A stretch of DNA of 64,000 nt, taken from NCBI RefSeq assembly GCF_026213295.1, contig NC_079412.1:19170127-19234126 (forward strand). Reading direction: 5' to 3'. The translations under genes were made by a program, and so were the position numbers. Positions 7,747-33,176 of the stretch are shown piece by piece. Within the stretch, counting starts at the first letter, position 1, and each line of letters begins with the position of its first letter. The notes beneath the pieces were generated by a model. It searched no databases. It worked only from the letters and a program-made list of their open reading frames with translations, and was not told where the DNA came from. This DNA comes from Gadus chalcogrammus. Its lineage: Eukaryota; Chordata; Actinopteri; Gadiformes; Gadidae.

Positions 7747-10634
7747 CTAGGCCCAGTTGCAGCAACTGCAGGAGGTGTCAAAGACCAGCCCATTGGTACA
7801 GTGCTGGAAGTATGTCTTGCCCATGCTGCACTGGTAGAATTGGTTCTTGTTGGTCGGGTCTGGGAACATTCCGTTGCCCTTGCCCACGCAGAAGGTGGCG
7901 CTCATGCCCTTGGTTCCAGGGTCAGAGCCGCCACCCGAGCTGCTTCCACCACCGGAGCTGCTTCCACCACCGGAGCTGCTTCCACCACCGGAGCTGCTTC
8001 CCCCGTCACTGGTCACACCTTTGATAGGTGGCAGGGGAGTCGCAGGGGCAGTGCAAGCTGCAGACAGATGCATAGAGACGTATTACAATGTAGGCCGTAG
8101 CTACAGCCCAATACAAAAGTGGTCATTGCTTTGCATTGTATTTTTGAGCGCATAACCACACACAACCTTCACATGCACTCACATGCGGACTCCAGGCCGA
8201 GGCCCTTCTTCAGCACGTTGATGAGGGGGTATTTCCCCTGGTTGCAGAAGGTTCCACTGTAGTCGTCCATGTCAAGGGTCCAGACCATGGCTCCGGCAAA
8301 GTTGTTCTTCTTCACCCAGTCAACCTAAAGACAGCCACAAGTAGGTGATGACCAGTTCTTCGACCCATAATCAAAAACATGGCGGTTATGTCTGCACTTC
8401 CATGTTGAAAGATGGAGACTTTGCTTCATTTAACCCCTATCATTTAAGGAGGACATCCATAAGGAACGTGAGAGTTCACCTATTAGCTATTGTTCCTGTC
8501 AGGAATGGACAACATTAAATCTGCAGCATTTGCTTTTCATCAAGACGACACTGATTATAATTGGAAGGAACAGCGTCCTGCCTACCTTAATCTGGAAGCT
8601 CTTCATGTTGTCATAGCCCACCCACTGGTTTCCTTTGTAGGCATAGGGCACATCCTGGACCGCGTTCCACACCTCAGTCCCTCCTTTCAGGAAGTCACAG
8701 ATCTGGAAGATAATGAAAGAAAATGGTCAATTCATACATAATCACTCATCGTCATGTATTCCTGTTTGAAAAACATGTTATGTGAAGTATAGCAAGGAAA
8801 ACCGACACAAAAACAACTGATCGCAAGTCCGCTGGCATGACAGGGCATCAGGATACGTTACAACACTTTGTTATAATGTGTTCAGCAGTACCTCAAAGTA
8901 AGCCAGCTCTCCGGCCTCTTGTGTGTACTTTCCAGGGGTTCCAGCTCCGGCAGTGGGGGCCCCAACACCGTGGTTGGCAGGGTTACGCAGGGTAAAGGTG
9001 TTGCCATAGGTGGGGAATCCGACCATCAGCTTGTCAGCTGGGGCTCCGTTGTCCTTCCAGTAGTTCATGGCGTAGTCCTGGAACAAAAGCAGGGCGATAG
9101 CTCAGTTTAGGAGCAACGCTTTGCAAAAACGATGTTTTGAGGCCTTCTTTTTTTTATATTGTGCATGTTGTGCAGGACAGTTAATCCATCCTGTTGGGTC
9201 CATGTTAGGATTCACAGGAGTATTTGGCGAGTCTGTCTTGACTTACGACGTTGAAGTAGATGAATCCACCGTGGTCCTCGGGGCCCTTGAACAGGGGACT
9301 GACCTCTCCGGTCATGGGGTCCCAGGAGCCATGGAAGTCGTAGGTCATGACGTTGATCATATCCAGGGCCCTGCTCAGCAAAGAAGTCATAAGGTTTGAG
9401 GCAACTGTTCGACCGCCCGACAAAGAAGAATACAATTTGGAATTGTATCTCCCACCAGGAGAAAAGGAGTTAAAATCGCGTTTTTTTTTACACCTGTTTA
9501 ATAAGTTGAACTTACTGGCCCAGAGCCGGGATCTCATAGGCAGTTTCGATGTTGCCCTGGCCGGCAGCCACAGCGGCGGAGAGGAGGAGACGGGCCCTGC
9601 TGGTCTTCTTGGCCTCGGCCTCAAAGGCAGCTCTCATCTCCTGTGGGAGGAGGACAGGGGCCGTCAGATGCCCGAGGGCCAAACAGGAGGCCATGTTGTT
9701 GTGTTCATCTCACTGCTTTGACCAACAGGGCATTTCGTTTGATTTGCAGTATCAAAAAATTAGAGGATCAAAAAGAGGCGTTGATCAAATGAGTCCCAAG
9801 CGCCTTCGAAACACAGGCGACCTGCAAGAGACGGACGACTCACTTGAAGCAGAACCGAATAGTAGTGCTTGTCCTCTGGGGGGCTTCCTCTGAGGGCTGG
9901 GTACTCCCAGTCGATGTCAAGCCCGTCAAACTCATACTTCCTCAGGAACACCACGACAGAGTTGATAAAGGTTTGGCGATTGGTTGGACTGGCCACCATG
10001 GCTGAGAAGCTTTTTTTGAAAAGGGTTTGTGTTAGCACAAAAAATAGCCTAGTATGGAAATGGTAACTTTAAAGGAATTATGAAGATCAAACAGCTTTAC
10101 CCTGCAGATCCGAAGTTCCATCCGCCCACAGACAGAAGAGTCTTCAACTCGCCGTTCCTGGAAGAAGAAAGTGGTTTAAGACCTGATGATTTCCCTTCAT
10201 AATTCTCAACCATTGAAACAAGAAATTAAATCCCACAGGGTTGGAGGAAGAAACCGCTCAGACTCGGTGGTTCTGACTCACTGGTTCTTCAAGCCGTTGA
10301 ACTGGCTGTACAGCTCCACGTCGTTCCACTCGTAGGTGGCCAGCATGTTGTTCTTCATCGTGGCGAAGGCGTACAGGAGATGGGTGCACAGGCAGGGGTC
10401 AATGTTGGTGGGCATGTAGATGGTGGGGGGGGGTCTGTACTGAGCCCAGTTGGTGAAGTAACATGACAGCTTGAAGGCAGATCCTGTGATAGAAGACCAA
10501 TTTGCAGTTTCAAATAAATTCTCAAGGTCTCATCAAAGGCTCATCGAAGGTTCATATGCATGTAATACAATACTCAAATTACATCAAATGTAATTTAGGT
10601 CGGTCTTAGTCTACTGTTAATTGAGTGATATACC

Positions 10635-13657: not shown

Positions 13658-15865
<2,208 letters not shown>

Positions 15866-18747: not shown

Positions 18748-20516
<1,769 letters not shown>

Positions 20517-20976
20517 AGAAACCGTGCATACATCATGATAGACTGACTCCCTGTTGCCGAACCCTCGCCTGCCTGACTACCGCTTGCTTCGCCCCATTTT
20601 GTCATCTACCCCGTGTCCCAATAAACCCTCTGTCCTTTTACCCCGTCTCTGCCTCCCTGTGTCCAGTGCCTGGGTCCCCTCGCCCCGCTCCTTAACAATG
20701 CAATTGTTTTTTGGAAAACTTGAAAATAATAAGACGATTAAAGTCCATTGTGGATTGTTTTAACCGAAATGTATTCAATAAAATTCTTTGAAATATTAAT
20801 CTGCTGTCTTTTTGTTAAAGGTATAAAGGGATAAAGTAGGCTAAACTTAAGCAGGTTGCCCACGTTAAACTGCTATATGCATCAGGCTACATGTCATTGT
20901 AAAAATTGTAAATGCATATGACTCAGGCATGTCAGTTTCACGTAAGCCAGTGAGGCTATGATTAAGCTAATCAATA

Positions 20977-24589: not shown

Positions 24590-24771
24590 TTTGAATTTAG
24601 CACACTTTCAAAGCGCTCCATTGACAAACCATACGTCAAACATGCAAGATGACAGACAGCAAGCCCGTTGGGAGGAGATGTCCTGCTCAGGTGCACCTCA
24701 ATGCTCAGCTTAGATGCCGGAGTCGAGGATCGAACTAGCAACCTTGCAGTTGCAAGTCAACACACTAGGCC
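24590..24771 (-). mobile_element. V-SINE-like retroposon, 3' portion
   Basis: The minus strand reads TTGACTTGCAACTGCAAGG, then GTTGCTAGTTCGATCCTCGA (anticodon-arm-like part and box B), then GAGGTGCACCTGAGCAGGAC and CTCCCAACGGGCTTGC, resembling the core of fish V-SINEs, and an AGCGCTTTGAAAGTG tail. Its 5' head is missing here but present at 31235-31266, on the far side of the 6.46-kb element. Confidence 0.75.
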
Positions 24772-24818
24772 ACCGTGGTGAAGTTAGTTTGAAGTTGGAT
24801 ATTCGACAGATATTCGGC

Positions 24819-27588
24819 CATTCATTTCCTATGGGAAATTGCTTTTTGCTCAATAGCTTCCGAGTTATAGGAGCCAGTGGCCCCAGACCAATGTTGACCT
24901 GTCCTACTATGTGGTACTAACAACACACACCTCACTAAAAATTAATATTTTGCTCCTCCTATTTTATTTAAATATTTTAAGAATCCCATTCATTTCCTAT
25001 GGGAAATTGCTTTTTGCTCAATAGCTTCCGAGTTATAGGACCCAGAGGCCCCAGACCAATGTTGACCTGTCCTACTATGTGGTACTAACAACAGACACCT
25101 CACTAAAAATTAATATTTTGCTCCTCATATTTTATTTAAATATTTTAAGAATCCCATTCATTTCCTATGGGAAATTGCTTTTTGCTCAATAGCTTCCGAG
25201 TTATAGGACCCAGAGGCCCCAGACCAATGTTGACCTGTCCTACTATGTGGTACTAACAACACACACCTCACTAAAAATTAATATTTTGCTCCTCCTATTT
25301 TATTTAAATATTTTAAGAATCCCATTCATTTCCTATGGGAAATTGCATTTTGCTCAATAGCTTCCGAGTTATAGGACCCAGAGGCCCCAGACCAATGTTG
25401 ACCTGTCCTACTATGTGGTACTAACAACACACACCTCACTAAAAATTAATATTCTGCACCTCCTATTTTATTTAAATATTTTAAGAATCCCATTCATTTC
25501 CTATGGAAGACGGCTTTTTGCTCAATAGCTTCCGAGGTATGGGACCATGAGGCCCCAGACCAATTTAGACCTGTTCTACTATGTGGTACTAACAACACAC
25601 ACCTCACTAAAAATTAATATTTTGCACCTCCTATTTAATTTAAATATTTTAAGAATCCCATTCATTTCCTATGGGAAATTGCTTTTTGCTCAATAGCTTC
25701 CGAGTTATAGGAGCCAGTGGCCCCAGACCAATGTTGACCTGTCCTACTATGTGGTACTAACAACACACACCTCACTAAAAATTAATATTTTGCTCCTCCT
25801 ATTTTATTTAAATATTTTAAGAATCCCATTCAGTTCCTATGGGAAATTGCTTTTTGCTCAATAGCTTCCGAGTTATAGGACCCAGTGGCCCCAGACCAAT
25901 GTTGACCTGTCCTACTATGTGGTACTAACAACACACACCTCACTAAAAATTAATATTCTGCACCTCCTATTTTATTTAAATATTTTAAGAATCCCATTCA
26001 TTTCCTATGGAAGACGGCTTTTTGCTCAATAGCTTCCGAGTTATGGGACCATGAGGCCCCAGACCAATTTAGACCTGTTCTACTATGTGGTACTAACGAC
26101 ACACACCTCACTAAAAATTAATATTTTGCACCTCCTATTTTATTTAAATATTTTAAGAATCCCATTCATTTCCTATGGGAAATTGCTTTTTGCTCAATAG
26201 CTTCCGAGTTATGGGACCCAGGGGCCCCAGACCAATTTAGACCTGTTCTACTATGTGGTACTAACAACACACACCTCACTAAAAATTAATATTTTGCTCC
26301 TCCTATTTTATTTAAATATTTTAAGAATCCCATTCATTTCCTATGGAAGACGGCTTTTTGCTCAATAGCTTCCGAGTTATGGGACCCAGAGGCCCCAGAC
26401 CAATTTAGACCTGTTCTACTATGTGGTACTAACAACACACACCTCACTAAAAAATAATATTTTGCTCCTCCTATTTTATTTAAATATTTTAAGAATCCCA
26501 TTCATTTCCTATGGGAAATTGCTTTTTGCTCAATAGCTTCCGAGTTATAGGACCCAGAGGCCCCAGACCAATGTTGACCTGTTCTACTATGTGGTACTAA
26601 CAACACACACCTCACTAAAAATTAATATTTTGCTCCTCCTATTTTATTTAAATATTTTTAGAATCCCATTCATTTCCTATGGAAGACGGCTTTTTGCTCA
26701 ATAGCTTCCTAGTTATGGGACCCAGAGGCCCCAGACCAATTTAGACCTGTTCTACTATGTGGTACTAACAACACACACCTCACTAAAAATTAATATTTTG
26801 CTCCTCCTATTTTATTTAAATATTTTAAGAATCCCATTCATTTCCTATGGAAGACGGCTTTTTGCTCAATAGCTTCCTAGTTATGGGACCCAGAGGCCCC
26901 AGACCAATTTAGACCTGTTCTACTATGTGGTACTAACAACACACACCTCACTAAAAAATAATATTCTGCACCTCCTATTTTATTTAAATATTTTAAGAAT
27001 CCCATTCATTTCCTATAGACGGCTTTTTGCTCAATAGCTTCCGAGTTATGGGAGCCAGTGGCCCCAGACCAATGTTGACCTGTCCTACTATGTGGTACTA
27101 ACAACACACACCTCACTAAAAATTAATATTTTGCTCCTCCTATTTTATTTAAATATTTTAAGAATCCCATTAATTTCCTATGGAAGACGGCTTTTTGCTC
27201 AATAGCTTCCGAGTTATGTGACCCAGAGGCCCCAGACCAATTTAGACCTGTTCTACTATGTGGTGCTAACAACACACACCTCACTAAAAATTAATATTTT
27301 GCTCCTCCTATTTTATTTAAATATTTTAAGAATCCCATTCATTTCCTATGGAAGACGGCTTTTTGCTCAATAGCTTCCGAGTTATGGGACCCAGAGGCCC
27401 CAGACCAATTTAGACCTGTTCTATTATGTGGTACTAACAACACACACCTCACTAAAAATTAATATTTTGCTCCTCCTATTTTATTTAAATATTTTAAGAA
27501 TCCCATTCATTTCCTATGGAAGACGGCTTTTTGCTCAATAGCTTCCGAGTTATGGGACCCAGAGGCCCCAGACCAATGTTGACCAATG
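24819..27588 (+). repeat. Left tandem array, ~168-bp unit, about 17 copies
   Basis: Unit marker CATTCATTTCCTATGG recurs near 24820, 24988, 25156, 25325, 25491, 25659, 25827, 25995, 26163, 26331, 26500, 26668, 26836, 27003, 27168, 27335 and 27504. Each unit has TTGCTCAATAGCTTCCGAG, GGCCCCAGACCAAT, ACTATGTGGTACTAAC, CACCTCACTAAAAATTAATA and TATTTAAATATTTTAAGAAT. Two variants occur: A (GGGAAATTG, ATGTTGACCTGTCC) and B (GAAGACGG, TTTAGACCTGTTC). The last unit is truncated. Confidence 0.97.
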
Positions 27589-28509
27589 TTGTATTAATTA
27601 TGTCTAAACTGCAGGGAATAGATACATATTCCAAGGTGCCTTTCGAAGGAAACCTTGGAATATCTGCATGTCTATTTCCTAAACAGCGGACCCTATGACA
27701 AAAACAACATAATTGACGGCAGCTCCGTTGCCGCCCACGTGGTTTGGAGCCATGTAAGGAGCAGAGGGGGCTGACATAGCAACCATGAGAGTTACGTGAC
27801 GTGGACGCAGGCCCATTGAAAAGAAAAGGCCAAAAAACCTAGGCATGGCACATGTTTACAGACGTTATTGTATTTAATTAATTAAATATTAAAATATATA
27901 TTATATAAATAATTAAATATACAATTATTTTGTTATAATATTATAAGTAGACCATAGCTTTTATTCAATTGTCGTTATAACAAGATCTGTATCCGACCAT
28001 TGACCATCGACTCGTAAATTCTATGAATTTAATTCATATTGACGTATGGCGATGGACCGTATGGCACTGTATCCCTTAAATCCCATTTTGAATTTAATAG
28101 ACCATTCTCGTTGCTTCGAGGAAGTCTGGTGGTCTCCGTATATAATAAATAAATATATAAACATATTTATTTATTTATTCCAGCCCTTCTCAATGCTGCG
28201 GAACGCTCACTAAAATTTTTACGTAAACAATTTTAATAGTGTAACTATACATAAATATCTTACCCACCCAGAATAAAAAGTATTTCCGCCATTTTCACAG
28301 AAAAATATCCAAAAAAACATCCAATAGGAGAGATGCTCACAGCGTCTATTGGAGACGTAGTCGGGTTAATACAGGAGTGAATCGGCTGCTGGAGCACCCC
28401 ATTTCCGTCTGCAGACTACGCCGAAGGGTACCTTTCCCGTCAGCCACCGATGTTCAAGTGCCTTGGCCAACAGTCGGTATTTGATGTTCTCGGAGTCAGG
28501 CTGTGTTGG
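27589..28509. other. Nonrepetitive centre of the inverted-array element
   Basis: About 0.9 kb between the arrays: an AT-rich middle (27860-28260) flanked by more balanced sequence. It has no long open frame and no recognisable transposase. A short inverted repeat, CCAATAGG...TCTATTGG, lies near 28320-28355. It may be a remnant of a longer internal region or captured host DNA. Confidence 0.6.
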
Positions 28510-31185
28510 TCTGCATTGGTCTGGGGTTTCTGGAGGAGCAAAATATTAATTTTTAGTGAGGTGTGTGTTGTTCGTACCACATAGTAGAACATGTCTAAAT
28601 TGGTCTGGGGCCTCTGGGTCCCATAACTCAGAAGCTATTGAGCAAAAAGCCGTTTTCCATAGGAAATGAATGGGATTCTTAAAATATTTAAATAAAATAG
28701 GAGGAGCAAAATATTAATTTTTAGTGAGGTGTGTGTTGTTAGTACCACATAGTAGGACAGGTCAACATTGGTCTGGGGCCTCTGGGTCCTATAACTCGGA
28801 AGCTATTGAGCAAAATGCAATTTCCCATAGGAAATGAATGGGATTCTTAAAATATTTAAATAAAATAGGAGGAGCAAAATATTAATTTTTAGTGAGGTGT
28901 GTGTTGTTAGTACCACATAGTAGAACATGTCTAAATTGGTCTGGGCCTCTGGGTCCCATAACTCAGAAGCTATTGAGCAAAAAGCCGTTTTCCATAGGAA
29001 ATGAATGGGATTCTTAAAATATTTAAATAAAATAGGAGGAGCAAAATATTATTTTTTAGTGAGGTGTGTGTTGTTAGTACCACATAGTAGGACAGGTCAA
29101 CATTGGTCTGGGGCCTCTGGGTCCTATAACTCGGAAGCTATTGAGCAAAATGCAATTTCCCATAGGAAATGAATGGGATTCTTAAAATATTTAAATAAAA
29201 TAGGAGGAGCAAAATATTAATTTTTAGTGAGGTGTGTGTTGTTAGTACCACATAGTAGGACAGGTCAACATTGGTCTGGGGCCACTGGCTCCTATAACTC
29301 GGAAGCTATTGAGCAAAAAGCAATTTCCCATTGGAAATGAATGGGATTCTTAAAATATTTAAATTAAATAGGAGGTGCAAAATATTAATTTTTAGTGAGG
29401 TGTGTGTTGTTAGTACCACATAGTAGAACAGGTGAACATTGGTCTGGGGCCTCTGGGTCCTATAACTCGGAAGCTATTGAGCAAAAAGCAATTTCCCATA
29501 GGAAATGATTGGGATTCTTAAAATATTTAAATAAAATAGGAGGAGCAAAATATTATTTTTTAGTGAGGTGTGTGTTGTTAGTACCACATAGTAGAACCGG
29601 TCTAAATTGGTCTGGGGCCTCTGGGTCCCATAACTCGGAAGCTATTGAGCAAAAAGCCGTCTTCCATAGGAAATGAATGGGATTCTTAAAATATTTAAAT
29701 AAAATAGGAGGAGCAAAATATTAATTTTTAGTGAGGTGTGTGTTGTTAGTACCACATAGTAGAACAGGTCTAAATTGGTCTGGGGCCTCTGGGTCCCATA
29801 ACTCGGAAGCTATTGAGCAAAAAGCCATCTTCCATAGGAAATGAATGGGATTCTTAAAATATTTAAATAAAATAGGAGGAGCAAAATATTAATTTTTAGT
29901 GAGGTGTGTGTTGTTAGTACCACATAGTAGGACAGGTCAACATTGGTCTGGGGCCTCTGGGTCCTATAACTCGGAAGCTATTGAGCAAAAAGCAATTTCC
30001 CATAGGAAATGAATGGGATTCTTAAAATATTTAAATAAAATAGGAGGAGCAAAATATTAATTTTTAGTGAGGTGTGTGTTGTTAGTACCACATAGTAGGA
30101 CAGGTCAACATTGGTCTGGGGCCTCTGGGTCCTATAACTCGGAAGCTATTGAGCAAAAAGCAATTTCCCATAGGAAATGAATGGGATTCTTAAAATATTT
30201 AAATAAAATAGGAGGAGCAAAATATTATTTTTTAGTGAGGTGTGTGTTGTTAGTACCACATAGTAGGACAGGTCAACATTGGTCTGGGGCCTCTGGGTCC
30301 TATAACTCTGAAGCTATTGAGCAAAATGCAATTTCCCATAGGAAATGAATGGGATTCTTAAAATATTTAAATAAAATAGGAGGAGCAAAATATTAATTTT
30401 TAGTGAGGTGTGTGTTGTTAGTACCACATAGTAGAACAGGTCTAAATTGGTCTGGGGCCTCTGGGTCCCATAACTCGGAAGCTATTGAGCAAAAAGCCGT
30501 CTTCCATAGGAAATGAATGGGATTCTTAAAATATTTAAATAAAATAGGAGGAGCAAAATATTAATTTTTAGTGAGGTGTGTGTTGTTAGTACCACATAGT
30601 AGAACAGGTCTAAATTGGTCTGGGGCCTCTGGGTCCCATAACTCGGAAGCTATTGAGCAAAAAGCCGTCTTCCATAGGAAATTAATGGTATTCTTAAAAT
30701 ATTTAAATAAAATAGGAGGAGCAAAATATTAATTTTTAGTGAGGTGTGTGTTGTTAGTACCACATAGTAGGACAGGTCAACATTGGTCTGGGGCCTCTGG
30801 GTCCTCTAACTCGGAAGCTATTGAGCAAAAAGCAATTTCCCATAGGAAATGAATGGGATTCTTAAAATATTTAAATAAAATAGGAGGAGCAAAATATTAA
30901 TTTTTAGTGAGGTGTGTGTTGTTAGTACCACATAGTAGGACAGGTCAACATTGGTCTGGGGCCTCTGGGTCCTATAACTCGGAAGCTATTGAGCAAAAAG
31001 CAATTTCCCATAGGAAATGAATGGGATTCTTAAAATATTTAAATAAAATAGGAGGAGCAAAATATTATTTTTTAGTGAGGTGTTGTTAGTACCACATAGT
31101 AGGACAGGTCAACATTGGTCTGGGGCCTCTGGGTCCTATAACTCGGAAGCTATTGAGCAAAAAGTAATTTTCCATAGGAAATGAA
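28510..31185 (-). repeat. Right tandem array, same ~168-bp unit inverted, about 16 copies
   Basis: The reverse complement of the left-array unit; marker GGAAATGAATGGG recurs near 28660, 28830, 28997, 29166, 29333, 29501, 29667, 29837, 30005, 30173, 30341, 30508, 30677, 30845 and 31013, and the outermost copy near 31176 runs into the terminal sequence. Variants A and B are again interspersed. The innermost unit is partial (28510-28560). Confidence 0.97.
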
Positions 31186-31234
31186 TGGCCGAATATCCGT
31201 CGAATATCCAACTTCAAACTAACTTCACCACGGT

Positions 31235-31266
31235 CACTAGGCCTACCTCCTGAGCTAAGCCGACCC
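31235..31266 (-). mobile_element. V-SINE-like retroposon, 5' tRNA-like head
   Basis: The minus strand reads GGTCGGCTTAGCTCAGGAGG then TAGGCCTAGTG, a tRNA D-arm with a box A-like sequence. Joined across the element after removing one CACTAGGCC copy, it continues into the tRNA-like sequence at 24762 and below, so one SINE was split by the insertion. Confidence 0.75.
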
Positions 31267-33176
31267 AAATCACATGCCTCTCGCATTTAATGATTTTCAA
31301 TTCAATTATGCTCCAAGGCAGAATCCTCGCGTTCAATCTAAACAACTGCTGAACTTAGCCCAAAACCATTCTTACACCTAAAGTTATATTCACCTTTCTT
31401 TTGAAAGAAATCGGTTCGGAGTTGTTTTCCCTTAGCTTGCTTTTTTGTGACCCCGATTTCCAATCTTTGGGTAAAGACATGACTATGGTGCAGTCAGCAG
31501 TCACTCAACTCGCGATTAGCCGCGTTACTGATATGGGGCATCCTGGCGCAGTTGTGGAATAAACCATTTTTCGCCTTCTGTAAGGGATGACAGTGAGGCT
31601 GCAGATGAGAACAGGATGAAGGTGACTCCACAATGTCCACATACATGGTCACAACTCCTCAAGAGTAATGTTGGGTGAGGGACCGATGATTGGCAGGAAG
31701 GGGATACAACAGGTGAAGATGAAACATATTTACTGTCTGATCAACTTACAATAGGTCAGGCAGGGAGGGTGATAAGTGCAGGGCAGATATGTCATCATGT
31801 TAACTGTTTGATAAACTAATGGTGGGTGCAGGCAGCCAGGGCTCTGGCAGGGAGGAGAATGAAGTCAGAACAAGGCGAAACCATATAAATTGTTAGGGAT
31901 GAATACATTCTTCATAGGGTTTCCCTAAACTCCCCTTGGTTAGGTAAAATCCGGTACTTACCCTACGACACAGGACTCATTATTATGAGTCTCTCTGGAT
32001 AAAACATATTTTGTTAACTATCTGCAGGACAGAAACATTGAACATAATTTAGAATTCCTTATTAACTAAAACAGCATTAAGTCCATCTTCTATTTATCAA
32101 GTGGTGTTTTCATTTTTTGTGTAAAGCAAAAATGTAAGCTTCACGTTTGTATAATTTTTATAACGTAATTACAAAATCGAAGTTCAGAAATCGTTAAATC
32201 AAATTCATAGGGAACAATCTACCAATCTGCTTTTCGAAGCTTGCGGCAGGGCTCACACCTTTTAAAACATAAAAAAAAGAATATTTCAGGGGCATCTCAG
32301 GACCGCACAACAACCGCACAAACCCATTGATAGCAGTTTAATTACACCAACATGTATTTTCTCAAATACAAAAAAGGTTTTGAGACCCAATTAGAAACAG
32401 CATGTACAGGGACACATGGTATATTTTGATCATTATATTATTTGAGTACGGTTCTTATGCAAGCACTAAATGAAATGCGTCATTTTTTTGTATTTTTATT
32501 GGATAACACAACACTTTAACTTGAAACATGGGCTGGTGTATTTTAAAATATTTACTTTTCAGGTTTTCCAGGAGGGGAAGCCAATATAGAAATATAATAT
32601 TCATTACAGAGTACATTACTGCTTTTCCAGAACACCTTGTCAGACCTTTAAAGTATACTACTTATACTTTAAGATCAGACTTATAGATTAATACAGTGAA
32701 TGGTTAAGGCATTGTTGTAATCCAACCTCTTCTCATTATGGCAGATTGAATAGCACACATGAAGAGGCCAGAATGACTTGAGTAACCAAGACAACATGAG
32801 ATTCACTTTTTAATATTATGGCAATATACCAATTTTAATTCATGTCTTCAATCACATAGGCACTGCAGTGTTGTTTACAGTACAGTACAATGCAACCTGA
32901 CTGTACATCACGAGCCCTACCAGAAATACACAAGTACCGAGAAGCTTATTGATTTTGGTGTCGCCTTCGTATTTCCAGCAGGCCACAACTCCTGTCTGTG
33001 GAGTTACACTCAAGGCTGGCTGACTCCTCTCTGTATATTTCGAAGACCAGTTGAACAAAAAGGAAAAACGCACAAACTCTTAAGAAGTTCAATCCATTTT
33101 GTATCTTAAAAAAAGAAAAAAAAAGAACCAGAAAAAAGTTGTCTGGTTGAACGATGTCTCTTGTATATTTGAGGTC
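31267..33176. other. Intergenic DNA and dnajc11 3' UTR, no further gene recognised
   Basis: AT-rich noncoding sequence. The part next to 33177 should be the dnajc11 3' UTR; several minus-strand ATTAAA/AATAAA motifs (near 32505, 32808, 32835) could end the transcript but none stands out. No open frame resembles a known family. Confidence 0.5.

Follow-up and report, generated by a model that had tools for sequence, protein, structure and literature searches.

Within the 64,000-nucleotide stretch of Gadus chalcogrammus DNA that we analysed (hereafter, the window), positions 24772-31234 form a single element, which is probably a non-autonomous transposon with arms of 168-bp satellite-like units, moved by the predicted Rehavkus-like transposase of a 25-kb sister element. 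It consists of inverted tips, two opposed 168-bp arrays and a 0.95-kb centre, and is flanked by a 9-bp duplication (Table 1). Read directly, the 46-bp tips differ by one mismatch (left, CGACAGATATTCGG; right, CGACGGATATTCGG), and the two arrays delimited by Tandem Repeats Finder lie in opposite orientations. A first-pass annotation, made from the sequence alone, had described ~17 units, a ~0.9-kb centre and ~16 inverted units between shared ends of ~48 bp, with a perfect 9-bp duplication around the whole; this layout was borne out, with the figures now as given in Table 1.

Table 1. Features of the element and its target site (positions in the window)
Feature	Position	Strand	Basis
Left target-site duplication, CACTAGGCC (9 bp)	24763..24771	.	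sequence reading, flank comparison
Left terminal inverted tip, 46 bp, starts ACCGTGGTGAAGTTAG	24772..24817	+	reading; tip recurs in other copies
Left satellite arm, 16.5 x 168 bp, two unit haplotypes interleaved	24818..27584	+	Tandem Repeats Finder, unit comparison
Centre, truncated copy of a ~1.25-kb dispersed repeat; no meaningful coding matches	27585..28531	+	genome matches, Pfam, relatives fetched
Right satellite arm, 15.8 x 168 bp, inverse of left arm	28532..31188	-	Tandem Repeats Finder, unit comparison
Right terminal inverted tip, 46 bp, 1 difference from left	31189..31234	-	sequence reading
Right target-site duplication, CACTAGGCC (9 bp)	31235..31243	.	sequence reading, flank comparison
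Interrupted dispersed repeat, left part (tRNA-SINE-like by reading)	24635..24771	-	joined-flank matches; alignment to L043
Interrupted dispersed repeat, right part	31235..31269	-	joined-flank matches; alignment to L043

Allowing up to three mismatches, a scan of the genome for the initial 34 bases of the tip found 53 sites, compared with none for its reversed control. A genome search also placed the centre at 12 other sites with ~98-99% identity (one match is partial, one is split in two pieces, and three of the 12 are C16 copies with a common outer flank). Among the 23 elements for which both tips were read, a count that leaves out nine one-tip loci (L017, L020-L023, L025, L027, L029 and L048), the target duplication is 9/9 in 12, 8/9 in four and less in seven, such that 16 of the 23 stand at 8/9 or 9/9. 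When flanks were mispaired between elements (21 of the 23; true pairs drawn by chance were skipped), 8/9 was reached in 0 of 20,000 draws. Duplication lengths of 7, 8, 10 and 11 bp fit poorly among the 21 elements tested, while 9 bp fits. Lastly, the joined flanks of the window's element match 38 other genomic places, every match spanning the join (40 of 899 candidates were scored, two of them being the window's own flanks). The element thus sits in a dispersed repeat, of which uninterrupted paralogous copies exist elsewhere in the genome. From its tRNA-like boxes, we took the target repeat to be SINE-like; Rfam gave no match within the window. The copies, their 9-bp duplications and the uninterrupted target paralogues thus support the first-pass proposal that the element is non-autonomous and mobile and has inverted ends made of subrepeats.

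The centre was considered as a relic of a transposase gene, and that reading was rejected. In four of its diverged relatives (L037-L040), such arms and tips are absent and the flanks are common to all four, and we therefore read the centre as a captured repeat. Pfam scans of the centre and of family-2 DNA, in six frames for the centre, L029 and L030 and in three frames for part of L047, brought up no transposase; they gave sub-threshold rows alone, which were disregarded. A long ORF in L031 has the look of a LINE insertion.

Tips resembling those of the window family also delimit the elements of two sister families, whose units are 153 bp and 152 bp long, respectively. Judged by alignment, the 153-bp unit is homologous to the window's 168-bp unit (local score of 61, reached by 0 of 200 shuffles). 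Homology of the 152-bp unit to the 168-bp unit found no support in the same kind of comparison, the best local score being 16 versus a shuffled mean of 13.3, with 31 of 200 shuffles reaching 16; the two units are apparently unrelated. Derivation of the unit from the tip, as is reported for Tetris, found no clear support in nine tip/unit comparisons, with no family significant and the strongest score (family-3 tip versus 153-bp unit) reached by 19 of 300 shuffles. Units within one arm are ~95-97% alike, whereas the left arms of L009-L012 are 99.7-100% identical at matched positions; in these copies, therefore, the arrays were carried over as strings of units. The number of units per arm ranges from ~2 to ~33, the 25-kb interval holding 46 or more, and some arms contain duplicated blocks of ~5, 13 or 14 units, for which slippage or unequal exchange may be responsible.

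A marker of the 168-bp unit has 469 sites; the 100 that head the list (contigs C1-C4) all lie inside elements, with no standalone array among them, and a count over the window plus loci L009-L028 gave 397 such sites. A marker of the 152-bp unit has 724 sites, and of the 100 that head its list (to C7), 99 lie at most ~6 kb inside a tip of the 152-bp family. The first-pass idea that the family spreads satellite-like DNA is therefore not matched by any free satellite among the sites listed, where 168-bp units were seen only inside elements of this assembly, in which collapsed arrays would escape such a count.

The 25-kb interval lies between two tips of the 152-bp family and contains a 1040-aa ORF, followed by Ulp1-like and PHD-finger exons; its gene is the predicted transposase. 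A PHD-finger exon that, in tblastn searches, is most like those of the Ulp1-PHD gene family is retained in two elements whose tips and 168-bp units are of the window family. The remaining tblastn matches, of a repetitive stretch of P0002 to L017, were taken for low complexity. The PHD-finger profile PF00628 scored above its cut-off in the L058 exon (3.2e-6), L044 (7.3e-8) and L045 (3.3e-9) and, among fish homologues, in P0001, P0011 and P0016; it fell below the cut-off in P0002 and was absent from P0003 and P0024. The 1040-aa ORF matched no Pfam family up to an E value of 10, and so neither PF10551 nor THAP. An AlphaFold model of the catalytic region of a relative, P0006, is RNase H-like. Among the VIA-align rows, its best match by VIA Z is ISCth4, a member of the IS256 family, the bacterial relative of Mutator; the P element ranks next on that measure (10.7) and tops the Foldseek list (6p5a_A, E 1.5e-4), and other VIA-align rows name retroviral integrases and Hermes. 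From AlphaFold models of relatives, the protein is predicted to have an RNase H-like (DDE-type) catalytic fold. No match from the protein searches bore an arthropod or annelid name, and no invertebrate was named in those that started from an alignment or from P0024, a distant relative. A candidate for the autonomous relative that the first-pass annotation proposed to look for lies between the similar tips of the sister 152-bp family, and the satellite-only copies look like deletion derivatives of the 25-kb coding element.

On architecture and domains as described, rather than on sequence, the elements fit best as a teleost branch of Rehavkus-like, Mutator-related transposons. Drosophila FB elements have inverted ends of subrepeats and 9-bp duplications, both of which were found here; the FB subrepeats are short, in contrast to the 168-bp unit of the pollock element. 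Rehavkus is preferred over FB or a canonical MULE because of the PHD finger and Ulp1-like exons and because no MULE Pfam domain was matched. The "MULE/FB-like" label of the first-pass annotation stands with regard to the subrepeat-built ends and a duplication within the 8-11 bp range, but PF10551 did not match and Rehavkus is the better comparison. Rehavkus elements are reported to make 9-bp duplications, to encode a PHD finger and to carry a minisatellite ahead of their 3′ end (PMC6446971), and the inverted ends of Rehavkus-1_TC from Tribolium castaneum are described as containing a 164-bp satellite (PMC10218199). Here we likewise found 9-bp duplications, a satellite-like repeat at the inverted termini and a PHD finger in the predicted transposase. 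The differences, as far as these descriptions go, are that the reported hosts are arthropods and annelids rather than fish, that Rehavkus-1_TC stretches comprise at most 9 units, compared to ~2 to ~33 per arm here and more in the 25-kb interval, and that Ulp1 exons and the exchange of units under conserved tips are absent from the Rehavkus descriptions compared.

Several other elements share parts of this design. Tetris, a non-autonomous foldback element of Drosophila virilis, has ~220-bp tandem units in its inverted ends, 8-10 bp duplications and unit numbers changed by duplication, much as here; however, no transposase was found for Tetris, while a candidate gene exists here, and Tetris units also form longer satellite-like arrays (PMC4079207). 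Tm1, a Mutator/Foldback element of root-knot nematodes, has composite inverted ends, duplications of 8-10 bp (mostly 9) and both non-autonomous and coding members, with end repeats of only ~14 bp (PMC3169594). Among vertebrates, short DNA transposons with tandem arrays in them are already known from Xenopus, in the form of the MITEs Xstir and miDNA4, the latter of Tc1/mariner type; the descriptions compared mention no pair of inverted arms and no 9-bp duplications together with such arms (PMC12628747). Merlin elements have 8-9 bp duplications, which would fit, inner tandem repeats in some cases and a terminal GG (PMC8101967); our tips begin with ACCG, and Merlin was set aside for that reason.

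We infer that the transposase would recognise the conserved ~35-46 bp tip, cut at both ends and join these to a target opened with a 9-base stagger, and that filling-in of the stagger would give the target duplication. Internal deletions would have taken out the gene, leaving satellite-only elements. The arms may serve as extra binding or pairing platforms, and be kept for that role, by analogy with Galileo, in which two additional inner sites in the ends are bound by the THAP domain of the transposase (PMC3688188). It is possible, albeit on the doubtful side, that the arms are instead unused in transposition and are selfish or host-selected satellite hitch-hiking between efficient short tips, which would be compatible with the proposed mover and not with the proposed role of the arms. 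In its favour, tip/unit similarity is significant in no family, similar tips are paired with different units, and the short-armed L045 has a 9/9 duplication. Against this, arrays of 152-168-bp units are kept in all three sister families and a 164-bp unit occurs in Rehavkus-1_TC (PMC10218199), which suggests a kept role for the arms. A bolder reading, itself less likely than not, is that in this vertebrate lineage a single transposase with Ulp1 (SUMO-protease) and PHD (chromatin-reading) parts moves elements whose ends are fixed and whose satellite is replaced outright (168/153 versus 152 bp). The ends might then work as a cassette, picking up satellite DNA, taking it along and exchanging it, and the arms as a chromatin platform on which the Ulp1-PHD part acts.

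It seems improbable to us that the element is mobilised by a MuDR-type transposase, from a canonical MULE elsewhere in the genome, and that the Ulp1-PHD gene is a passenger. The 9-bp duplications do lie within the MULE range of 8-11 bp (PMC6446971), and a PF10551 profile search of the genome gave seven matches, one of which (L035) is flanked by inverted repeats of at least 421 bp with 99% identity. However, none of the seven places coincides with a tip among those listed, the two of these loci that were inspected, L035 and L036, contain between them a single tip-like match, with four mismatches, in L036, and a PHD exon sits within two elements of the window family. Near the outer edge of its long inverted repeats, as far as these were followed, L035 has other sequence. 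A P-element or Galileo-type element is very unlikely, despite the structural matches of the catalytic model to the P element. P and Galileo duplications are 7-8 bp, as opposed to 9 bp here, and Galileo has a THAP transposase, whereas the 1040-aa ORF, which matches no Pfam family at all, has no THAP match and is accompanied by PHD and Ulp1-like exons instead. What Galileo does share with the elements described here is long ends with tandem repeats, which in Galileo include transposase sites (PMC3688188). Finally, there is hardly any case for an ordinary satellite array that became inverted through rearrangement or misassembly and so mimics a transposon: long inverted arrays of such similar units are hard to assemble, but the tips and centre recur at many loci with differing flanks and 9-bp duplications, uninterrupted target paralogues exist, and no standalone array was seen among the marker sites listed.

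In the open PMC literature, searched by titles and abstract openings, we recognised no paper describing this fish family. The satellite-armed architecture is already known from Rehavkus-1_TC; what looks new, within the literature searched, is the lineage in fish, the gene with Ulp1 and PHD parts and the change of satellite payload. The origin of satellite DNA, and how it arrives at new places, is a long-standing question, for which Tetris-type elements offered no transposase. Here, one genome holds near-identical satellite-armed elements, which were probably recently mobile, together with satellite-only derivatives and a coding element with a likely transposase, which opens the way to direct tests of what the arms do in transposition and of how a transposon may turn into satellite. 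The combination of Ulp1-like and PHD modules in one gene suggests a link of mobility to SUMO or histone marks and, if the Rehavkus link is true, a poorly known group reported from arthropods and annelids would be extended to vertebrates. In this fish, satellite-like DNA travels as part of a jumping element.

The window corresponds to C1:19170127-19234126 in an assembly of 630 Mb. Its element was recovered as a single unit by both direct reading and repeat analysis, and the exon-like frames around it place it in gene-bearing DNA (see the table). The first-pass annotation had proposed that a satellite array is packaged here as a nonautonomous MULE/FB-like transposon of which further copies should exist. 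Searched with its first 34 bases, the tip (the terminal inverted sequence) has 53 genomic matches with ≤3 mismatches, versus none for the reversed control, and a 19-base form has 174 with ≤2 mismatches, versus 21 for its control; because the searches score only the best candidates, these counts are lower bounds. The centre, which lies between the two arrays or arms, recurs at about 98-99% identity in at least 12 further places (one partial, one split in two pieces), and its closest relative beyond the 12 copies is 81% identical. Three of the 12, at fetched loci L009, L021, and L023 (contig C16, about 28.0-28.5 Mb), have a common outer flank, which we traced to a duplicated segment holding the element; the long-arm unit string is identical in L009 and L021.

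Features of the window element, its surroundings, and related loci
Feature	Location	Strand	Remarks
Whole element	between 24763-24771 and 31235-31243		6,463 bp: 46-bp tip, 16.5 units of 168 bp, centre, 15.8 inverted units, inverted tip
9-bp flanking duplication	24763-24771 and 31235-31243		CACTAGGCC, same sequence on both sides
Centre	27585-28531
Glycosyl hydrolase 18 match	window 9205-9633	-	exon-like frame
Ras-family GTPase match	window 13658-14071	+	exon-like frame
F-box match	window 20139-20576	-	exon-like frame
MULE-type transposase ORF	L035:1041-7401 (C10:5791500-5798900)		440 aa; inverted repeats on both sides are 99% identical over 421 bp or more
Intervals between family-2 tips	C15:28467022-28479584 and C123:50035-62598		12.5 kb each
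Stretches between family-2 tips	C23:8884200-8884771, 8889760-8890331, and 8895320-8895891		572 bp each
Open reading frame in C16 core	L058:3344-6466	minus	1040 aa

The 9-bp flanks could be compared in 23 elements with both tips read, leaving aside nine loci with a single tip in the fetched stretch. They were identical (9/9) in 12 and matched at 8/9 in four; thus, the expected copies with duplications do exist, with tips and centre elsewhere and 16 of the 23 at 8/9 or 9/9. The other seven (L011, L018, L028, L033, L047, and the long intervals on C15 and C16) fell below 8/9. No motif common to the duplications was evident, and when flanks were mispaired between 21 of these elements, 8/9 was reached in none of 20,000 draws. 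With the element and one duplication removed, the joined flanks form a dispersed repeat, which we read as a tRNA-derived SINE. Among the best 40 of 899 candidates scored for this joined target, two were the window's own flanks and 38 were other copies that span the join without an element (one of them was aligned). These are paralogous uninterrupted sites and none is an empty allele.

The centre aligns with a dispersed repeat some 1.25 kb long. The four relatives fetched (L037-L040) are about 74-87% identical and all lack 168-bp arms and such tips, and no frame of the centre gave a meaningful Pfam match. We read the centre as a passenger.

Two sister families have tips similar to those of the window family (family 1). 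Family 2 (tip ACCGCGGTGAA..., loci L029-L031, L047, and L048) has a 153-bp unit that is homologous to the 168-bp unit (score 61; shuffled sequences averaged 13.9, and none of 200 attained it). For the 152-bp unit of family 3 (tip ACCGTGGTAAAG..., loci L032-L034 and L049-L058), no relation was detectable to either the 168-bp or the 153-bp unit (scores reached by 31 and 181 of 200 shuffles, respectively). Of 44 tip positions, 40 are identical between families 1 and 2; the tip of family 3 differs from that of family 1 once in the first 19 bases and matches it further at GTTGGATATTCG. L032 comprises tips and two opposed arrays only, and the middle of L049 is similar in appearance. In one 12.5-kb interval between family-2 tips (L030/L031), the 153-bp arrays are split by a LINE-looking insert with a 912-aa ORF. 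The three 572-bp stretches on C23 are spaced exactly 5,560 bp apart, and probably represent a small element that was copied along with a longer, tandemly duplicated segment.

On C16, a facing pair of family-3 tips lies 25 kb apart, and the interval was read except for about 7 kb on the right. From the left it comprises the tip, one unit (L054), 46 units in 7 kb (L052), about four more (L058), and a core; the right end is a tip and one unit (L055). Beyond the core's 1040-aa frame, stretches on the same strand align to fish homologues in their Ulp1-protease and PHD-finger regions. The PHD stretch is above the Pfam cut-off; the Ulp1-like frame, tested alone, is below it. Matching 9-bp flanks are absent from this interval. 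The L032 array junction carries sequence of the core's left border, and the right border (76 bp at 94.7%) is kept in L033, L034, and L051; we read these four satellite-only elements as probable internal-deletion derivatives.

Each family has some tie to the same transposase gene family: family 3 by the C16 gene, family 2 by a 36% relative that, by coordinates only, lies 1.4 kb inward of the family-2-type tip at C16:24663226, and family 1 by PHD-finger exons in L044 and L045. In the latter two loci the tips are of the window type, the units are 168 bp long, and the duplications are 9/9; their exons (PF00628, 7.3e-8 and 3.3e-9, respectively) most resemble the ones in fish relatives of the transposase, and their core is partly present in L024. 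Several observations count against this reading. Of the 36 rows of transposase matches, only two fall inside a listed tip, and the 55% relatives are near no listed tip that faces inward; two C10 cores with 3-7 kb of extra sequence have no transposase match there; and assembly searches found no autonomous window-family element. Family 3 is the only one in which a long open copy was read between tips. Transposase relatives, several with internal stops, also cluster at C15:19.2-20.2 Mb. Going by the relatives of the transposase, the host is probably a teleost; transposons are, however, able to pass between species. In one protein relative (P0026, 1892 aa, 26%), PF00443 (UCH), Ulp1, and PHD domains adjoin the transposase-like part. 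The outer-edge sequence of L035 differs from the window family, and its right end is cut by the limit of the fetched stretch. Beside a MULE match, L036:382-2478 (C11:2203500-2210200) holds a 698-aa frame with dozens of short near-identical ERMLDGGG-like repeats.

Compared by features, the nearest known group would be Rehavkus, and we filed the elements as Rehavkus-like. For this group, PMC6446971 describes 9-bp duplications, a PHD finger, and a minisatellite ahead of the 3' end, and gives arthropods and annelids as hosts; in Rehavkus-1_TC, the inverted termini contain a satellite of 164 bp (PMC10218199). Tetris (PMC4079207), Tm1 (PMC3169594), Galileo (PMC3688188), and Xenopus MITEs that bear satellites (PMC12628747) are parallels in form. 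Mobility would be cut-and-paste with 9-base staggered joining, a chemistry that we infer.

Among the marker sites listed, nearly all of the satellite-like units belong to elements. A 168-bp marker has 469 sites; the first 100 listed (C1-C4 only) are all inside elements, and 397 sites fall within the window and L009-L028. A 152-bp marker has 724; of the first 100 listed, 99 are no more than about 6 kb inward of a family-3 tip and one is solitary. Window-family elements with both tips span 824 to 9,144 bp. Their arms are made up of two unit haplotypes strung in order, with about 95-97% identity among units of one arm. Left-arm units at equal distance from the tip are 99.7-100% identical between L012 and L010, L011, and L009; the window left arm is offset by whole units (97.7-97.9% in place, 99.1-99.3% by best match), and right arms are shifted too (best matches 99.6-100%). 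Compared in 504-bp windows, blocks recur at up to 100% identity: after 2,183 bp (13 units) in L009, and after 2,346 bp (14 units) and 837 bp (5 units) in L013. The place-by-place and best-match identities thus indicate that the array moves as a string with the element, with whole units gained or lost.
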